IMG/VR virus record: IMGVR_UViG_3300049477_000036
Location: 1-29,712 of that record
DNA length: 29,712 nucleotides
Source: a virus
Reading direction: 5' to 3' (one strand)
The notes under the pieces were generated by a model, which was given only the letters and a program-made list of their open reading frames with translations, was not told the origin of the DNA and did no database searches. This document shows, piece after piece, positions 1,485 through 8,942 of this stretch. Positions within the stretch are counted from its first letter, which is position 1, and every line of letters begins with the position of its first letter. The translations under genes were made by a program, and so were the position numbers.

Positions 1485-1535
1485 ATTATAGCGCTTCCAA
1501 CGTCTCCGTGTAAACGCTTGTTACACACTGTTACA
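1485..1535 (-). promoter_or_regulatory. Minus-strand promoter with tandem TGTAAC boxes
   Basis: The -10 is TATAAT (1485-1490). TTTACA (1509-1514) sits at an 18-bp spacer and matches five of six bases of a sigma70 -35. Upstream are two TGTAAC hexamers (1520-1525 and 1530-1535), exactly 10 bp apart; the nearer one ends 29 bp before the -10. The farther box includes the TAA stop of the ligase gene. It drives the 127-, 46- and 230-aa genes. Confidence 0.75.
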
Positions 1536-2400
1536 CCTTGTAGAGCGACTTGAAGGTGCAGAATCTCGGCTGGTCTTTAATGCCGTATTCAAACCACTTG
1601 ATCGTAATGGTCTTCCCCACCAGTTCAGAGGGGTTGTTCCAATAGTGGATCCGATCTTCAGCGGTCATCTCTCCTGGGGATACTCGGAGTTGCTGTCCAG
1701 TAGTGACATTTGTAGCAAGGATTGTGCCCACTCGTCCTGCGTTAACCATGCCATCTTGTGAATGAGAGCGTTTGCTATGTCCAAGGGCATCAACTGTCTG
1801 AGGGTTATGATTAGACACACCCTCTTCGAGACCTGTGACAAGTGCTTCTCCGTCGCTAAATCGCTTAAACTTCCAAAGAATCTGGTCATTATGAGTTGCA
1901 CGTCCGAACTTGTATTGTCCATGAACACTCCTAATCATGACTCCTTCGTAGCCCAGGTCAACAGTGTCTTGCTCAAGCTGCAGAAACTGCTCGTACCCAT
2001 GCACGTCAAAGTGAGGGACAACAGAAATCCGGTGGTGCCTCACGTCGTACAAAGACCAATGCCGTGCTTTGAAGGCACGATTCGGTTGGTCAAAGTTATC
2101 AAACACGTGGAATGTAAACTCAGGTTCACCCTCCGTCGACATGATTCCAGACTGCGTACGTCCTAGTACGTTGCCCTTATTGGGCGCCCCCACTATTAGT
2201 TCGCCGTCCAAACCGGTGGGGAGGCCAGCCAGTTGATCTTGCACGAACTTATTGCGGAACGGCTTGAGGTTCCTGCTAAGTGCCACGCCGTCCCTAATAA
2301 TGCAACGTAGCCCATCGAGCTTCGGACTAACCATTATAGGAAACGTCAGTCGCAGAGGATCCTCCAACGTGGCTGACAGCAGTGGTCTAAAGTCTTTCAT
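1531..2400 (-). CDS. ATP-dependent DNA ligase
   Basis: The 289-aa product seals nicks in duplex DNA through a lysyl-AMP intermediate and probably joins lagging-strand fragments during phage replication. Visible nucleotidyltransferase motifs are: I, SPKLDGLR with catalytic Lys27; an LSR segment at 41-43; LDGELIV at 64-70 (motif III region); EGVMIR at 152-157 (motif IV); and LWKFKR at 175-180 (motif V). The C-terminal 90 residues would form the OB fold. It is compact, somewhat shorter than T7 ligase (about 359 aa). The start overlaps the primase stop by ATGA and has AAGGA 6 nt upstream, so the two are co-translated. Its stop codon lies inside a promoter element of the next operon. Confidence 0.93.
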   Translation of the reverse strand: MKDFRPLLSATLEDPLRLTFPIMVSPKLDGLRCIIRDGVALSRNLKPFRNKFVQDQLAGLPTGLDGELIVGAPNKGNVLGRTQSGIMSTEGEPEFTFHVFDNFDQPNRAFKARHWSLYDVRHHRISVVPHFDVHGYEQFLQLEQDTVDLGYEGVMIRSVHGQYKFGRATHNDQILWKFKRFSDGEALVTGLEEGVSNHNPQTVDALGHSKRSHSQDGMVNAGRVGTILATNVTTGQQLRVSPGEMTAEDRIHYWNNPSELVGKTITIKWFEYGIKDQPRFCTFKSLYKV

Positions 2401-4400
2401 GCGTTTTCCTTTTTGGTGGCAATGTAGCCGTTGATCATGAGTTGATCGTTGTTAATACCTTGTGTGTAGCTGTATCGTTGGCCCTCCGTCATGATAAGTT
2501 GTGGGAGTCTCTTACGTTGATTTACTAGCTTAAACGGGAAGGTGGGGGACGATGCCGCAGCTGAGAGCATACGAGCACACATGTTCTTGTCACGGGAGGA
2601 GTCCTCACCAAGACGCGCGGCTAGATACCCCGCAGTAATGTACAACTCATCAGTATCCCTAAGCTTCGCGGTATCCGCAGCTTCAAGCAAATTGACAAGC
2701 AACTCACTAATAGTATCAGCTCTGTGATACTGCGCATTGATAAGCTCTTGCACATTCGTGATATGTCTATGCTCATCTCGAAGTTGCTGCGGAGCTTGAT
2801 CCAAAGTCACTTGTAGCTTGTACCACTCGCTAGCACGAATCTCGGCTTCTTTGTGCCTCACTTCTGCTAGTATCTGAAGCTTCTCAGCATAAGGCAGCCG
2901 AGTTATTCTGCTAACTTCAAGATTAAGAAAACGACGACTACCAGTCTGGTCACCAAGCTGGTCTGTTCTGTTGGTAGTTCCCACAAACACATAGCCACGA
3001 GGCTCAATAGTAGGAACTTTTGAATAAGCCACTCGATATTCATCATGCGTCTGGGTAAGCATCTGCTTAACCCGATCCATAGTTGCTTTCTTAGTTTCGA
3101 AGATCACGCCTTCTGCTAGGTCAACAACCACGGACTTTGTGAACATCTGACCTTGTGTCCGGTTACTGTCACCAGCATTTCCAGAGACGTCAGTCACTGC
3201 GTAGTAAAACTGGTGCCCATCGAACTTGCTTAGGTCTTCAAAGAAAGAGGACTTTCCAATTCCCTGGGGACCGATAAGAATGCAAGCGAAGTCACACTTA
3301 GTACCTGGCCGTAGGATTCGAAGTCCCATGCTTGTCATGAGAATACGACCCCAGTCGTCCGCAAACGCGGGGAAGGCAGACTCTAAGTACTGACTACCCC
3401 AATGTGCTAAGCGCTCTGTGCCATCCCACTCAAGTGCTTGGATCTTCTCTTGCACTAGATCGCGTCGAACGCTTAGCGCCATCTGCATACCAGTACGAAT
3501 CTGGTGATGCTTGTAATAACTACTGATCTCATCTTGCATGTATGCTATGCAAGAAAACTCGAGATCCTGCGGGTCCGATAGCTCCCCGTCTTTGATAATG
3601 CCCAAGCGTTTGTCTGTGTAAACACGCCCATCGAAGTAGTATTTCAGGATCTTGCTTGCGTTGATCTCATTAAGTATCAGCTTATCCTCGTTGAGACTGC
3701 AACCAAGTGTCTTGTACAGCTGCTTTTTCGATTCCTCAAGCTGCTCGAAGGGTATGCCGATCAAGTCGGTAAGCGTGGCTGCGGTATCTGCCTCAAGCCA
3801 ATCGTCAACACCTTTGCCTTCAGGAACTCGAAAGACCTCGAGCTCACACGAGAAAGCTTTAATGGCATGCTTGAGCGCAGTTGCAGCCATCTGGATATTC
3901 GGCTTGCTAACAATGTCCCCATCAAAGATCGCGATCACGCGCATCTCCGGGGCCAGACACTGCTGAAGATTCGACAGCAACCGTCGAGTGCCATCGGCTA
4001 GCTGCTCAAGGCCATTCCACGCGCCACCGATACCTACTACAGAAGTATTGGGCCACCGCTTATGAAACCGAGCTGCCTTCTTCTCACCTTCAATGATGAA
4101 AAGAACATCGTCTTTGTTAGTTCGTGGATCTCGCTGATGCGGCCACCAAATGTCCCGAATGCCTTTTGGTTGGATGTACTTGTTAGTGGCACGATCTATC
4201 CTGATCCGGTACATGAGCGGGGAGCGATATGGCAAGACATACGCTCCGGCACCATCATAGCGCACAGAACTTATCGGATACGCTTGGACATCTTCAGGAG
4301 TCAGACCTGATCGCGCTAGGTCCTCGTGCATGAACTTAACGCTAAGCTCGTCTTGTGACGGGGAAGGCGCAATCAGTGAAAGTTGTGGCAAGGCTGCCAT
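2397..4400 (-). CDS. Primase-helicase (toprim-like N-terminus plus VirE-type P-loop ATPase)
   Basis: The 667-aa protein probably primes and unwinds the phage replication fork. The N-terminal half has toprim-like elements: IIEGEKKA (102-109, Glu104), IAIFDGD (157-162) and GKGVDDWL (195-202). The C-terminal half is a superfamily III-like ATPase as in VirE (virulence-associated E) proteins: Walker A GPQGIGKSS at 377-385, Walker B VVVDLAEG at 424-431, a TTNRTD sensor at 475-480 and a TGSRRF arginine finger near 486-491. The start has AAGGAGCT 2 nt before the ATG, and that SD is complementary to an upstream octamer in a folded leader (see 4403-4494). It is co-translated with the ligase. Confidence 0.9.
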   Translation of the reverse strand: MAALPQLSLIAPSPSQDELSVKFMHEDLARSGLTPEDVQAYPISSVRYDGAGAYVLPYRSPLMYRIRIDRATNKYIQPKGIRDIWWPHQRDPRTNKDDVLFIIEGEKKAARFHKRWPNTSVVGIGGAWNGLEQLADGTRRLLSNLQQCLAPEMRVIAIFDGDIVSKPNIQMAATALKHAIKAFSCELEVFRVPEGKGVDDWLEADTAATLTDLIGIPFEQLEESKKQLYKTLGCSLNEDKLILNEINASKILKYYFDGRVYTDKRLGIIKDGELSDPQDLEFSCIAYMQDEISSYYKHHQIRTGMQMALSVRRDLVQEKIQALEWDGTERLAHWGSQYLESAFPAFADDWGRILMTSMGLRILRPGTKCDFACILIGPQGIGKSSFFEDLSKFDGHQFYYAVTDVSGNAGDSNRTQGQMFTKSVVVDLAEGVIFETKKATMDRVKQMLTQTHDEYRVAYSKVPTIEPRGYVFVGTTNRTDQLGDQTGSRRFLNLEVSRITRLPYAEKLQILAEVRHKEAEIRASEWYKLQVTLDQAPQQLRDEHRHITNVQELINAQYHRADTISELLVNLLEAADTAKLRDTDELYITAGYLAARLGEDSSRDKNMCARMLSAAASSPTFPFKLVNQRKRLPQLIMTEGQRYSYTQGINNDQLMINGYIATKKENA

Positions 4401-4521: not shown

Positions 4522-4562
4522 ATTATATCGCAGCATTCGGCCTTTCGTTTACCTGCGTTACA
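4522..4562 (-). promoter_or_regulatory. Promoter for primase-ligase, YGTAAC class
   Basis: The -10 is TATAAT (4522-4527), with no recognisable -35 hexamer. TGTAAC lies at 4557-4562, 29 bp upstream of the -10, and GTAAAC at 4547-4552, 10 bp nearer and 19 bp from the -10. The same hexamers at the same distances occur at the late promoter (7433-7483). The missing -35 suggests activator dependence. Confidence 0.65.
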
Positions 4563-4569
4563 CCTTGTT

Positions 4570-4797
4570 TCACTTGCCAACGCGATTCTGGAGGGGCTCG
4601 ACCAATGTGATGGTAGCGCGTTTCCGGTCTGCGGACAGAGACAATCTCACGACGTCCTCCCCCGTTTCACGGTCTGTGATCGTCGCCCGACTGTAACCAT
4701 CGTTCACCAAGTGCCGAGTAGCAGCAACAATCGCGTTCTCGCGCGTCTTGCAATAGCCACTCCAGAGACCTGCATAGCTTGTTTGAAATCGTCTCAC
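4570..4797 (-). CDS. Small hypothetical protein, 75 aa, GTG start
   Basis: I place the start at the GTG at 4797, because AAGGA sits 7 nt upstream and because the longer reading from an ATG at 4896 would run through the 3' end of the neighbouring gene. The 75-aa product (RRFQTSYAGLWSGYCKTREN near the start) is basic, with an ITDRETGEDVVRLSLSADRKRATITLVE beta-rich second half. It has no family I know. It is the last of the small-gene cluster before the primase leader; its stop is only 8 nt from the TGTAAC box of the next promoter. Confidence 0.7.
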   Translation of the reverse strand: MRRFQTSYAGLWSGYCKTRENAIVAATRHLVNDGYSRATITDRETGEDVVRLSLSADRKRATITLVEPLQNRVGK

Positions 4798-5751: not shown

Positions 5752-5943
5752 TTACCGACCTCTCACAATCATGGGGGAGACAGCCTGATCCGAAGCGTGC
5801 TTTTGGGCAGCTCTACGCGCGTCGCCCATTGTGGGCCAGGTCTTGCCAGCGTAAAGACGCATGACGTCCAAAAGACCCCAAACGACTTCCACACCGTAGC
5901 ATCGTGGGGCCAGTCGATTGATTCGATACTCTACTTGCTTCAT
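5752..5943 (-). CDS. Small basic hypothetical protein, 63 aa
   Basis: The 63-aa product is basic and Arg/Ala-rich (MKQVEYRINRLAPRCYG at the start, ARRAAQKHASDQA near the end). The ATG has AGGAG 6 nt upstream. It is the first gene of the transcript from the promoter at 5988-6027 and is coupled to the 45-aa membrane ORF. No recognised family. Confidence 0.75.
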   Translation of the reverse strand: MKQVEYRINRLAPRCYGVEVVWGLLDVMRLYAGKTWPTMGDARRAAQKHASDQAVSPMIVRGR

Positions 5944-5987: not shown

Positions 5988-6027
5988 ATTATAACGCAAA
6001 AAGATAACCGAGAGAATTACTGTTACA
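5988..6027 (-). promoter_or_regulatory. Promoter for the small-gene cluster, YGTAAC class
   Basis: TATAAT (5988-5993) is preceded by TGTAAC (6022-6027) at 28 bp, one base shorter than in the related promoters. No good -35 is present. It drives the 63-, 45-, 106-, 141- and 75-aa genes. Confidence 0.6.
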
Positions 6028-6084
6028 TTCTGTTTCTTTTTGATCGGGGCACATTGTGCTAACTGTTTGGTGGGGGCGAATCTT

Positions 6085-6140
6085 GTGCTATGTGCTTAGT
6101 GCTATGTGCTAACTGCTATGTGCTTAGTGCTATGTGCTAA
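6085..6140. repeat. Eight tandem heptamers, consensus GTGCTWW
   Basis: Eight contiguous 7-bp units run from 6085 to 6140 (GTGCTAT, GTGCTTA, GTGCTAT, GTGCTAA, then the same four with the fifth starting C). They form a higher-order 28-bp duplication. A further isolated GTGCTAA lies just upstream near 6056. The block is non-coding. Confidence 0.85.
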
Positions 6141-6164
6141 CTTCTGGTGGGGCGAAATCTCGCG

Positions 6165-6280
6165 CAGCGGTATAAAGATATGTATAAAGAAATGTAATAC
6201 GTTAATACGAACGTGTGTGTGTGATTATTTAATTATTAATATATTATTGAATTTACCCATATATATATATATAAAGTTCG
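6165..6280. other. AT-rich tract beside the repeats, possible DNA-unwinding element
   Basis: This non-coding stretch is very A+T-rich, with an alternating (TA) run near 6259-6274 and a short (GT) run near 6210-6220. A cluster of CGAA tetramers and a 10-bp palindrome (GTCGTACGAC, about 6309-6318) follow. Together with repeats on both sides it resembles a replication-origin melting region. This is inference from composition only. Confidence 0.4.
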
Positions 6281-6731: not shown

Positions 6732-6962
6732 TTACTCTTCGCTACCGAACTCGGCCAGCAGCTCTTCCTCGCTCATGTCGAGCTTGAACTTGCTCCCCGT
6801 CTTCTCGATGAGGCCTTGCTTGCGCAGCTTGGTCTTGTACCAAGCCACGCATGCCGGACTGGTCTTGCAGCCCTCGAACTTGGCCTTCACAGCCTCCAAG
6901 ATTTCAGAGTTGCTCTTGGTCGTGTTGAGAATCATCCACGTGATGAATTGCCCGATGTTCAC
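6732..6962 (-). CDS. Small hypothetical protein, 76 aa, possibly winged-helix-like
   Basis: The start is a GTG at 6962 with AGGAG 8 nt upstream. The 76-aa product is helical: TTKSNSEILEAVKAKFEGCK, then ACVAWYKTKLRKQGLIEKTG, ending in an acidic tail (SEEELLAEFGSEE). The pattern resembles small phage winged-helix-type DNA-binding proteins, but I cannot assign a family. It is the first and only clear gene of a short transcript that begins in the iteron-like array and stops at 6596, with a 9-bp inverted repeat 28 nt upstream of the start. Such a position would suit a regulator or replication-initiation accessory factor. Confidence 0.75.
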   Translation of the reverse strand: MNIGQFITWMILNTTKSNSEILEAVKAKFEGCKTSPACVAWYKTKLRKQGLIEKTGSKFKLDMSEEELLAEFGSEE

Positions 6963-6989
6963 AGTACTTACTCCTAATACGCTGTTACT

Positions 6990-7011
6990 ATCAAATTAGA
7001 CTTAATTTGAT
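6990..7011. promoter_or_regulatory. Perfect 9-bp inverted repeat upstream of the 76-aa gene
   Basis: Arms ATCAAATTA (6990-6998) and TAATTTGAT (7003-7011) are separated by GACT. The element lies in the leader, between the SD and the repeat array, and is A+T-rich with no U-tract. It may be an operator rather than a terminator. Confidence 0.55.
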
Positions 7012-7064
7012 TTATTCACAACGTAGAGATATTATGCCACGAATAATAGTCGACAAAAACGCTT

Positions 7065-7228
7065 TTTACATTTGTTGCACTCGTTACACTCGTTACAGGT
7101 TGTTGCATGTTGTTACATTCGTTGATTATACCACATGTTATACCCGACTGTTTTACTCGTTGCGTTTGTTGCAATGCGTTACGCGTGTTACGCGTGTTGC
7201 GTTTGTTACGCATGTTGCATTTGTTACG
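7065..7228. repeat. Iteron-like array of GTTRCR units at 9-10 bp spacing, with an embedded minus-strand -10
   Basis: On the plus strand GTTAC/GTTGC hexamers start at 7074, 7083, 7092, 7102 and 7112, and again at 7159, 7168, 7178, 7187, 7196, 7205, 7214 and 7223. Weaker units lie at 7065, 7121 and 7150. The 9-mer consensus is NYGTTRCRY. The complement (YGYAAC) is the hexamer found upstream of the phage promoters. In the gap between the two halves lies a minus-strand extended -10 (TGGTATAAT, -10 at 7125-7130), with a unit 28 bp upstream of it. The array fits a cooperative binding site for a replication initiator or master regulator. The rest of the gene-free stretch 6963-7492 holds the inverted repeat at 6990, a 9-bp inverted repeat around 7320 and 7405, and the late promoter. 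Confidence 0.8.
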
Positions 7229-7432
7229 GTTTTGCGAGGCGAAGTTGGATTTCGCAGGGCGGTGGGGGCGGCCTCGCTGCGCTCGGCACCAGTACGTCCA
7301 GCCAATTACAAAATCCGTCATTGGTAACACATCGCCCATCGCACATCGCCCAAAGCACTAAGTCCATCGTCCTCAAATCCATATACACTTTTTCTCAAAT
7401 CGTGGTTACCAATATATGCATACCACCAAAAT

Positions 7433-7483
7433 CGTAACGAATCGTAACAGTGGTAAACAAAGGCTGATCCTCCCCGCTATAAT
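7433..7483 (+). promoter_or_regulatory. Late promoter for the structural operon, YGTAAC class
   Basis: TATAAT lies at 7478-7483. CGTAAC at 7443-7448 is 29 bp upstream, a second CGTAAC at 7433-7438 is 10 bp further, and GTAAAC at 7453-7458 is 10 bp nearer (19 bp from the -10). This three-box, 10-bp phasing matches the minus-strand promoters at 1485-1535 and 4522-4562. No normal -35 is present. The predicted +1 (about 7490) is only about 3 nt before the terminase start codon. Confidence 0.7.
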
Positions 7484-7492
7484 GAAGCTGCC

Positions 7493-7849
7493 ATGAGCCT
7501 TATTCCCTCCCCACCGTCGAAGCCTCAGTTGCGGGTCACCCCACTTACTGAAGACGTCGGCCCCATCAAAGTCAATCGGCAACTGCGTGAGTTGTTCCGC
7601 GATGCCTTTGACCAGCTCGGTGGTGTGAACTTCCTTGTCGAGTTTGCACTCGAGTCCGAAGCCAATCGTCGAGTCTTTGTCCAAGCGATCTCGAAACTTC
7701 TTCCTGCCAGTGCGCAAGATACCAAGCAGGATAAGATTGTAATCGACGTTCCATGGTTGACCAGGGATCGTCTGGCGTACAAGGAAGGCGCGCTTGATTC
7801 CGACATCTCAGACGTTCTCCCCATAAAGGCAGTAAGTAATGGCGACTAA
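7493..7849 (+). CDS. Probable small terminase subunit, 118 aa
   Basis: The product would recognise phage DNA and load the large terminase. Assignment rests on position (first gene of the late operon, upstream of terL) and size. The centre is helical (LRELFRDAFDQLGGVNFLVE, ANRRVFVQAISKLLP) and the N-terminus is Pro-rich. There is no Shine-Dalgarno before the ATG, and the -10 box ends 9 bp upstream, so the message is probably leaderless. There is no other Met before residue 118 that could serve as an alternative start. It overlaps the next gene by 11 nt. Confidence 0.6.
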   Translation: MSLIPSPPSKPQLRVTPLTEDVGPIKVNRQLRELFRDAFDQLGGVNFLVEFALESEANRRVFVQAISKLLPASAQDTKQDKIVIDVPWLTRDRLAYKEGALDSDISDVLPIKAVSNGD

Positions 7850-8942
7850 CGACCTAGACCAGTCTGTCAGTAACGCTATTGCCAGTGGCGTCAGTGGACC
7901 AGTTGACCTTATCGCATGGCTCCTCCGGAAGGGTGGCCTCCCCGTCGATAAGCCGGTAGGTGGTTCTGACTGGATGGAAGAGAAGGGGCTTACTCGGAAA
8001 GTGAAACCGGGCGGGGCTCAAGTGGTTGGAGAAACTGTTGGTAGTTTGATGGACCCGCTGTCGACGGGAGCGGCTGCCGCTAAAGGCGCGATGCTGCTCC
8101 CCGCCTTGCTACGGTACGCGGACCTTGATGCGGTAACGAGGGCCGAGAAGCTTAAAAAGCTCGGTGGTAATGCGCAAGATATTTGGGAACAAACGCGACT
8201 GTTCAAGTATCCAGGCCAAATAACTGACAATCCTACAGCTGGTGCTAATCAGGTACGTTGGGGCATGGAAGCGCCGAGTAGGTCAATTGACCTTTCGAAG
8301 CTGTCAGATTCGCCTAAAACGCTAGATAACTTTGTTGATAACCCCACGTTGTTTGATAAGTTTCCGCAATTGCTAAAAACTGAGGTGGTAGAAGCACTGC
8401 ACCCTAAGAAGGCTAACTCAGCAGGTGTATACGCGCATTATGAGGGCCCAGCTGGTCGGATTTACATAAGCCCGAAAGCAAACAAAGAGTACGCGCGTGT
8501 TCTCCCCCACGAATTGAATCATGCGATAAACGCGCATGCAAATCAACTCGGGTCTATTGGCTACGTTGGTGAGCCTTTGGACCCCAGTCATATGCTAGTA
8601 CCGGCGCTCGTGGCGCAGGAACTTAGAAAAGCTGCTACTACTGCAGACGTAGGACTTCTGGCAAAGCACATTGAAGACGTGGGTATTACGCAAGCTATGA
8701 CTAAGCGTGATCCGTGGGCGTATTCCGCCGGTGAACGTCTGGCAGAAGCCGATGCCCATCGGAACCGTGATTCGGTATCACGTCATTTCGCCCCCACGTA
8801 TGATTTGAATGCTGGAATATACCCACGTAAAGACACTAAGATGCTTGTGCCAGATGATGTAGCTTGGCATTTGGGCAACGCGCTTAAACTAGACGCTGAT
8901 CCGAAGGCAGCTCTGGCGTACATGCTCCAGAAATTGAAGTAA
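7839..8942 (+). CDS. Zincin-like putative metallopeptidase between the terminase genes, 367 aa
   Basis: The 367-aa protein carries an HExxH-type site, VLPHELNHAINAH at 221-233 (His224, Glu225, His228). Downstream is AYSAGERLAEADAHRNR (294-310), whose Glu299 or Glu303 could be the third zinc ligand. This H-E-L-x-H plus GE.x.EA arrangement resembles peptidase-like domains found in large polyvalent phage and plasmid proteins. The N-terminal 100 residues hold a glycine/alanine-rich amphipathic stretch (GSLMDPLSTGAAAAKGAMLL). It is coupled to the small terminase (11-nt overlap) and terL (TAATG). A role in prohead maturation or in delivered-protein processing is possible; neither is shown. Confidence 0.65.
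   Translation: MATNDLDQSVSNAIASGVSGPVDLIAWLLRKGGLPVDKPVGGSDWMEEKGLTRKVKPGGAQVVGETVGSLMDPLSTGAAAAKGAMLLPALLRYADLDAVTRAEKLKKLGGNAQDIWEQTRLFKYPGQITDNPTAGANQVRWGMEAPSRSIDLSKLSDSPKTLDNFVDNPTLFDKFPQLLKTEVVEALHPKKANSAGVYAHYEGPAGRIYISPKANKEYARVLPHELNHAINAHANQLGSIGYVGEPLDPSHMLVPALVAQELRKAATTADVGLLAKHIEDVGITQAMTKRDPWAYSAGERLAEADAHRNRDSVSRHFAPTYDLNAGIYPRKDTKMLVPDDVAWHLGNALKLDADPKAALAYMLQKLK

Follow-up and report, generated by a model that had tools for sequence, protein, structure and literature searches.

Why does a phage genome carry 13 exact copies of one hexamer, all in the same orientation, in the gap between two divergent genes? The question is raised by an IMG/VR virus record of an uncultured phage, whose 29,712 bases were analysed in full and are referred to here as the window. 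In the left part of the window the minus strand encodes a ligase, a VapE-type primase-helicase and several small genes; in the right part the plus strand encodes the terminase, the portal and the major head protein. The array occupies the gap between the gene of a 76-aa protein (6732-6962, minus strand) and that of a 118-aa protein (7493-7849, plus strand), the latter in what appears to be the usual place of the small terminase. As detailed below, the array is very probably a set of docking sites for a gene-activating protein that would switch on two early promoters. Further downstream, a 367-aa ORF (7839-8942) between the 118-aa gene and the large terminase gene has no homologue in the 15 compared records; since L005 and L013 carry different sequence at this place, it looks like an insertion hotspot.

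Results

A clustered array in promoter register

The original prediction described about 15 GTTRCR units, 9 or 10 bp apart on one strand, in two blocks flanking an extended -10, and this description is borne out. There are 13 exact copies, all on the plus strand: a block of five (starts at 7074, 7083, 7092, 7102 and 7112; spacings of 9, 9, 10 and 10 bp) and a block of eight (starts at 7159, 7168, 7178, 7187, 7196, 7205, 7214 and 7223; spacings of 9, 10, 9, 9, 9, 9 and 9 bp). Two or three degenerate units, including TTTACA (7065-7070) and GTTGAT (7121), bring the array to about 15. Dinucleotide shuffles of 6963-7492 contained GTTRCR 1.2 times on average and at most 5 times, with a longest chain at 9/10-bp steps of 2 units, against 13 copies and a chain of 8 in the actual sequence. 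No other word of its kind comes close to GTTRC in the array stretch (13 occurrences; 5 for the next). The window as a whole shows no enrichment of the hexamer (84 copies against 72 +/- 8 expected), and the signal therefore resides in the cluster and its register. On the transcribed minus strand the unit reads YGYAAC, and the extended -10 between the blocks (TGTGGTATAAT; hexamer 7125-7130) is read on the same strand.

Based on exact units and register, each block can be assigned to a predicted leftward promoter. The extended -10 would be that of P2 (TATAAT, 7125-7130, minus strand; predicted start site near 7118), with the distal block of eight exact YGYAAC units at 9/10 bp (7159-7228, minus strand) as its putative upstream activating array. 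Counted from its start, the proximal unit of this block, CGCAAC (7159-7164), lies 34 bp before the P2 -10, which is the register seen throughout the clade. The proximal block (five exact YGYAAC units, 7074-7117, minus strand) falls inside the predicted P2 leader and, together with a degenerate proximal unit TGTAAA (7065-7070, minus strand), would form the upstream array of P1, whose -10 is CATAAT (7031-7036, minus strand; predicted start site near 7024). The distance from TGTAAA to this -10 is also 34 bp, start to start, and TGTAAA or TGTAAT recurs at this place in relatives. The first gene read from both P1 and P2 is that of the 76-aa protein (6732-6962, minus strand; GTG start), for which a three-helix, HTH-like fold is predicted.

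The same arrangement is found elsewhere in the window. A scan showed a preferred step of 28/29 bases from YGYAAC to a TATAAT-like -10 at 7443 (+), 7164 (-), 6027 (-), 4562 (-) and 1525 (-), in front of the packaging operon and of the 76-aa, 63-aa, primase-helicase and 127-aa genes, respectively; a sixth promoter at 7070 (-) is P1, with its variant proximal unit and -10. The divergent promoter of the packaging operon (7433-7483, plus strand), assigned by register, consists of CGTAAC-N4-CGTAAC (7433-7448) and TATAAT (7478-7483). Further promoters of this type precede the 63-aa ORF 5752-5943 (AGAAAC/TGTAAC; 5988-6037, minus strand), the 127-aa ORF 1058-1441 (TGTAAC-N4-TGTAAC, -35 TTTACA, -10 TATAAT; 1485-1535, minus strand) and the primase-helicase gene 2397-4400 (TGAAAC-N4-TGTAAC, -10 TATAAT; 4522-4572, minus strand). 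In the last of these, 35 bp separate the start of TGTAAC from that of TATAAT, and the -35, TAAACG, is poor. The initial observation that array and promoters share a hexamer can thus be sharpened: the unit keeps a fixed distance to the -10 and a fixed orientation relative to transcription. Since the array units are the promoter-associated site itself, one and the same protein very probably binds both, as first suggested. In the rightward promoter only 9 bp lie between the -10 and the ATG of the 118-aa gene, so that the mRNA of this gene should be leaderless or nearly so; similarly short distances are found in L005, L007, L010 and L013.

A promoter class conserved across the clade

Relatives were gathered by their terminase and by their 76-aa protein, as whole contigs where available. 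They yielded 46 distinct promoters in the clade, in which YGYAAC-N3/4-YGYAAC lies 28/29 bp before a TATAAT -10 and just upstream of the -35, with the consensus AARR-TGTAACA-N2/3-TGTAACARGG-N-TTTAC...GYG-N-TATAAT. The half-sites are 10 bp apart in 28 of the 46 and 9 bp apart in the other 18. A strict form of the pattern matched about 30 promoters in 11 near records, compared with 0-0.1 per record in shuffled sequences, and had no match in six more distant relatives (G006, G008, G013, G015, L023 and L027) or in the stretches read of five isolate phages. Two short near records, L007 and L013, have a strict count of 0 in spite of units at the junction; the L013 sequence stops short of the -10. Further exact units upstream of the pair occur in only four of the 46 promoters, two of which are those of the window, and the pair is therefore regarded as the working unit and the array as its multiplication. 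The best-supported account of the array is promoter anatomy rather than a set of iterons.

At the homologous junction the number of exact plus-strand units is far from constant: 13 in the window, 24 in L013 (22 of them consecutive, at exactly 10-bp steps), 3 in L010, 3 in L004 and about 5 in the others. This number looks as if it varied by expansion and contraction of a tandem tract. In L010 (8280-8460) and L007 (4860-4945), palindrome-like unit repeats (GTTAGTTAGTACTTACTTAC) replace the long GTTRCR block at the same junction.

The range of 3 to 24 units bears on the original prediction, in which the array was linked to replication initiation or partition and a comparison of copy number across relatives was proposed. 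The units would then be iterons of an origin, or a partition site, recognized by a phage or host initiator, and the VapE-type primase-helicase might be the protein that binds. In favour of such a site, the direct repeats are dense, lie on one strand and mark a divergent junction, the left operon contains replication genes, and a low-GC patch (31% at about 6961) is close by. However, the position of the units is set by the -10 of each promoter, and single pairs elsewhere in the genome keep this register without any array. An essential iteron set is moreover hard to reconcile with the variable copy number, and an origin would hardly tolerate a reduction to three exact units. The lowest-GC 100 bp of the window also lie elsewhere, at 6171-6270 (19%), beside two perfect 28-bp direct repeats (6086-6142). 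The stretch 6086-6270, 0.9 kb from the array, belongs to a 790-bp region in which no gene is convincing, and AT-rich islands occur at comparable places in L004 (481) and L007 (4051); we consider it a better candidate origin than the array. Weakened by the promoter register, the variable copy number and this more AT-rich candidate, an origin or partition function of the array seems improbable.

If the array belongs to the promoters, its ligand could still repress, the units being operators of a lysis-lysogeny or an early-late switch. A protein on the proximal block, which lies between P1 and P2, could block P2 transcripts, and pairs in the opposite orientation are found in T5-like phages (see below). 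Across the 46 promoters, however, the pair stays outside the core, at a constant distance upstream of the -35, which is the place of an activator, and some -35 elements of the class are poor, such as that before the primase-helicase gene. From this placement we infer activation rather than repression, and give the repressor only a slight chance.

Candidate binding proteins

The main rival for the role of binder is encoded next to the array. With the promoter architecture unchanged, the 76-aa protein would activate or repress its own gene and the other promoters. AlphaFold2, run with 17 relatives, predicted three helices in an HTH arrangement (mean pLDDT 77, pTM 0.55), and this protein may well bind DNA. 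The fold matches are weak: Foldseek returned no match to the model at E <= 0.001 (E at least 0.6), and the best VIA-align hit, PerR at Z 6.0, is within the range of common arrangements. A sequence search found no solved relative, and the protein falls into PHROG families of unknown function. Its gene is the first after the array, and it is present in nearly all clade records that have the promoter and absent from those that lack it; this co-occurrence may be simple kinship. Outside the clade the two dissociate in both directions. An identical box-promoter is found in T5-like and other phages, in whose fetched stretches no 76-aa homologue was detected, whereas the stretches read of isolates with 76-aa homologues (ZQG1, RDJL6, PaMx28 and Mallos) lack such a promoter. 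The 76-aa product, named at the outset as a candidate binder, is consequently not favoured, and we regard it as rather unlikely to be the ligand. L016, L019, L025, L026 and L001 each encode at least two paralogues of this protein, some adjacent and several preceded by an array-type promoter.

The box-promoters outside the clade came from an unbiased scan of the viral collection with the strict promoter, which returned 43 stretches, many of them from other phages; a small number, from AT-rich contigs, may be chance matches. These other phages include a group of contigs of about 100 kb, a 123-kb contig and others. The ~100-kb contigs, with a terminase that shares 49% identity with its counterpart in Vibrio phages of 113-118 kb, are taken to be T5-like phages. 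The box of this group keeps the same distance upstream of a TTGACA...TATAAT promoter, and GTTACA-N4-GTTACA sometimes occurs in the opposite orientation. L136, L134, L140, L147, L156 and related ~100-kb contigs have the promoter consensus TTGACA...TATAATTTTGGCGC, in some cases with an upstream TGTAACA pair in either orientation.

OmpR, RstA and RpaB are members of the OmpR/PhoB family, which bind head to tail at about one helical turn. Published sites of this family resemble the phage word: GTTACATTTTGTTACAT or KWWGTTACAT for E. coli OmpR (PMC5438342), TACATNTNGTTACA for RstA (PMC4117788), a predicted OmpR box GTAACAAGTTGTAACAGGTG in Acidithiobacillus (PMC9861516) and the cyanobacterial HLR1 of RpaB, KTTACAWW-N2-KTTACAWW, which activates from about -66 to -45 (PMC13421787). 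The phage pair, at about -42 to -59, is close to this activating position, and, like OmpR-family sites, it immediately precedes a sigma70 core promoter, adjoining the -35 and with 28/29 bp to the -10. Tandem head-to-tail GTTACA/TACA units of the OmpR/RstA type are found in general, but those of the window are often GTTGCR. The fit is better in L013, where RstA boxes occur without mismatch and OmpR boxes with one; the best full OmpR box in the window has two mismatches, and GTTGCR and GTTACG, both abundant there, make poor OmpR half-sites. The exact KWWGTTACAT occurs in only 5 of the 46 promoters. The window array is also mostly spaced at 9 bp, against 10-11 bp in OmpR-family sites, and long 9-bp runs drift around the helix.

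No OmpR-type DNA-binding domain (PF00486) is encoded in 14 phages of the clade, and a binder of this family would therefore come from the host. A host protein is favoured because the box-promoter occurs in phages without a 76-aa homologue, PF00486 is absent from the clade and the box word has been published. Within the promoter model, the assignment to the OmpR family, made from word, period, position and exclusion, is about evenly balanced. No PubMed Central paper matched all terms of a search for phage promoters under OmpR control, which does not prove that there is none.

A hint at the host comes from the capsid, whose closest isolate relatives are those of Stenotrophomonas phage BUCT555 (62%) and Myxococcus phage Mx8 (56%); this similarity favours a proteobacterial or myxobacterial host. 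The terminase had a best match of only 42% in bacterial genomes and is uninformative in this respect. About 800 genomes sampled from the Pseudomonadota and Acidobacteriota contained no instance of the promoter pattern with exact TGTAAC units; the two samples, G020 and G030, share a phylum and hence overlap. An initial lead was that the phage infects cyanobacteria and that its sites are HLR1 boxes of RpaB, in keeping with the activating position of HLR1, with exact HLR1 matches in two of the 46 promoters and with one weak portal relative that infects Microcystis. Most of the 46 promoters are nevertheless at least two letters off HLR1, the best match in the window array has two mismatches, and the closest capsids are those of phages of Stenotrophomonas and Myxococcus. 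Mismatch counts and host relatives have demoted this lead to a rival, and a very improbable one.

Discussion

The reading that we consider probable is that the two blocks at the junction are upstream activating sites arranged in tandem, at which an activator that binds direct repeats would serve two tandem sigma70-type early promoters, the binder being most likely a host response regulator of the OmpR/PhoB family. Leftward transcription from P1 and P2 would enter the 76-aa HTH gene and continue towards the replication operon. One half-site would correspond to one GTTRCR (YGYAAC along transcription), and the basic element to a pair of half-sites spaced 9-10 bp apart and located just upstream of the -35, between about -42 and -59. 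At the junction this element appears to be multiplied to 5-6 and 8 units. The extra half-sites may allow several monomers or dimers to be loaded side by side, so that P1 and P2 would be the first or the strongest promoters to fire, and the array may also serve the divergent promoter at 7433-7483 as a local reservoir of activator. Our levels of confidence in this reading and in its rivals overlap, as the one with the 76-aa protein as binder shares the promoter model.

A broader proposal, which we put forward tentatively, is that this clade and the T5-like phages have independently wired their promoters to one host OmpR-family regulator, and that the array was amplified to sense a host two-component signal and to concentrate the regulator at the start of the programme. 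If a host regulator is indeed the binder, early transcription of the phage would be tied to a host two-component pathway. The results also provide a testable promoter grammar, with two half-sites and a constant distance of 28/29 bp to the -10, for a large clade of uncultured phages and for the unrelated phages that share it. With exact units ranging naturally from 3 to 24, the junction offers ready-made material for measuring the effect of tandem regulator boxes.

Among known systems, the iteron arrays of plasmid and phage origins share the dense one-strand direct repeats of this array, whereas the phage units follow a promoter register, collapse in number in relatives and enclose no AT-rich tract. 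The HLR1 of RpaB has a tandem KTTACA at 10 bp in an activating position upstream of the core promoter, but its flanking WW letters are mostly lost in the phage promoters. The RstA box is likewise a tandem TACA at 10 bp, with exact copies in the L013 array; the known RstA boxes are single pairs, unlike the phage array. Direct repeats beyond the minimal pair, cooperatively bound, are usual for ArcA and have been reported for OmpR and PhoB (PMC3798270). The multi-repeat ArcA sites of E. coli, with direct repeats about one helical turn apart, differ from the phage array in having another word, 11-bp spacing, two to five repeats and a mostly repressing role. The OmpR boxes of Proteobacteria, such as those of E. 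coli, where several monomers bind in tandem at ompF, have in common with the phage sites the GTTACA half-site, the head-to-tail step of 10 bp and the tandem placement upstream of a sigma70 promoter. In the window array, by contrast, 9-bp spacing is commoner than 10 and GTTGCR/GTTACG units are abundant, a relative (L013) has 22 consecutive units, and the phage site is hard-wired 28/29 bp before the -10. The doubled upstream activating array would represent a new form of a known type of regulatory site.
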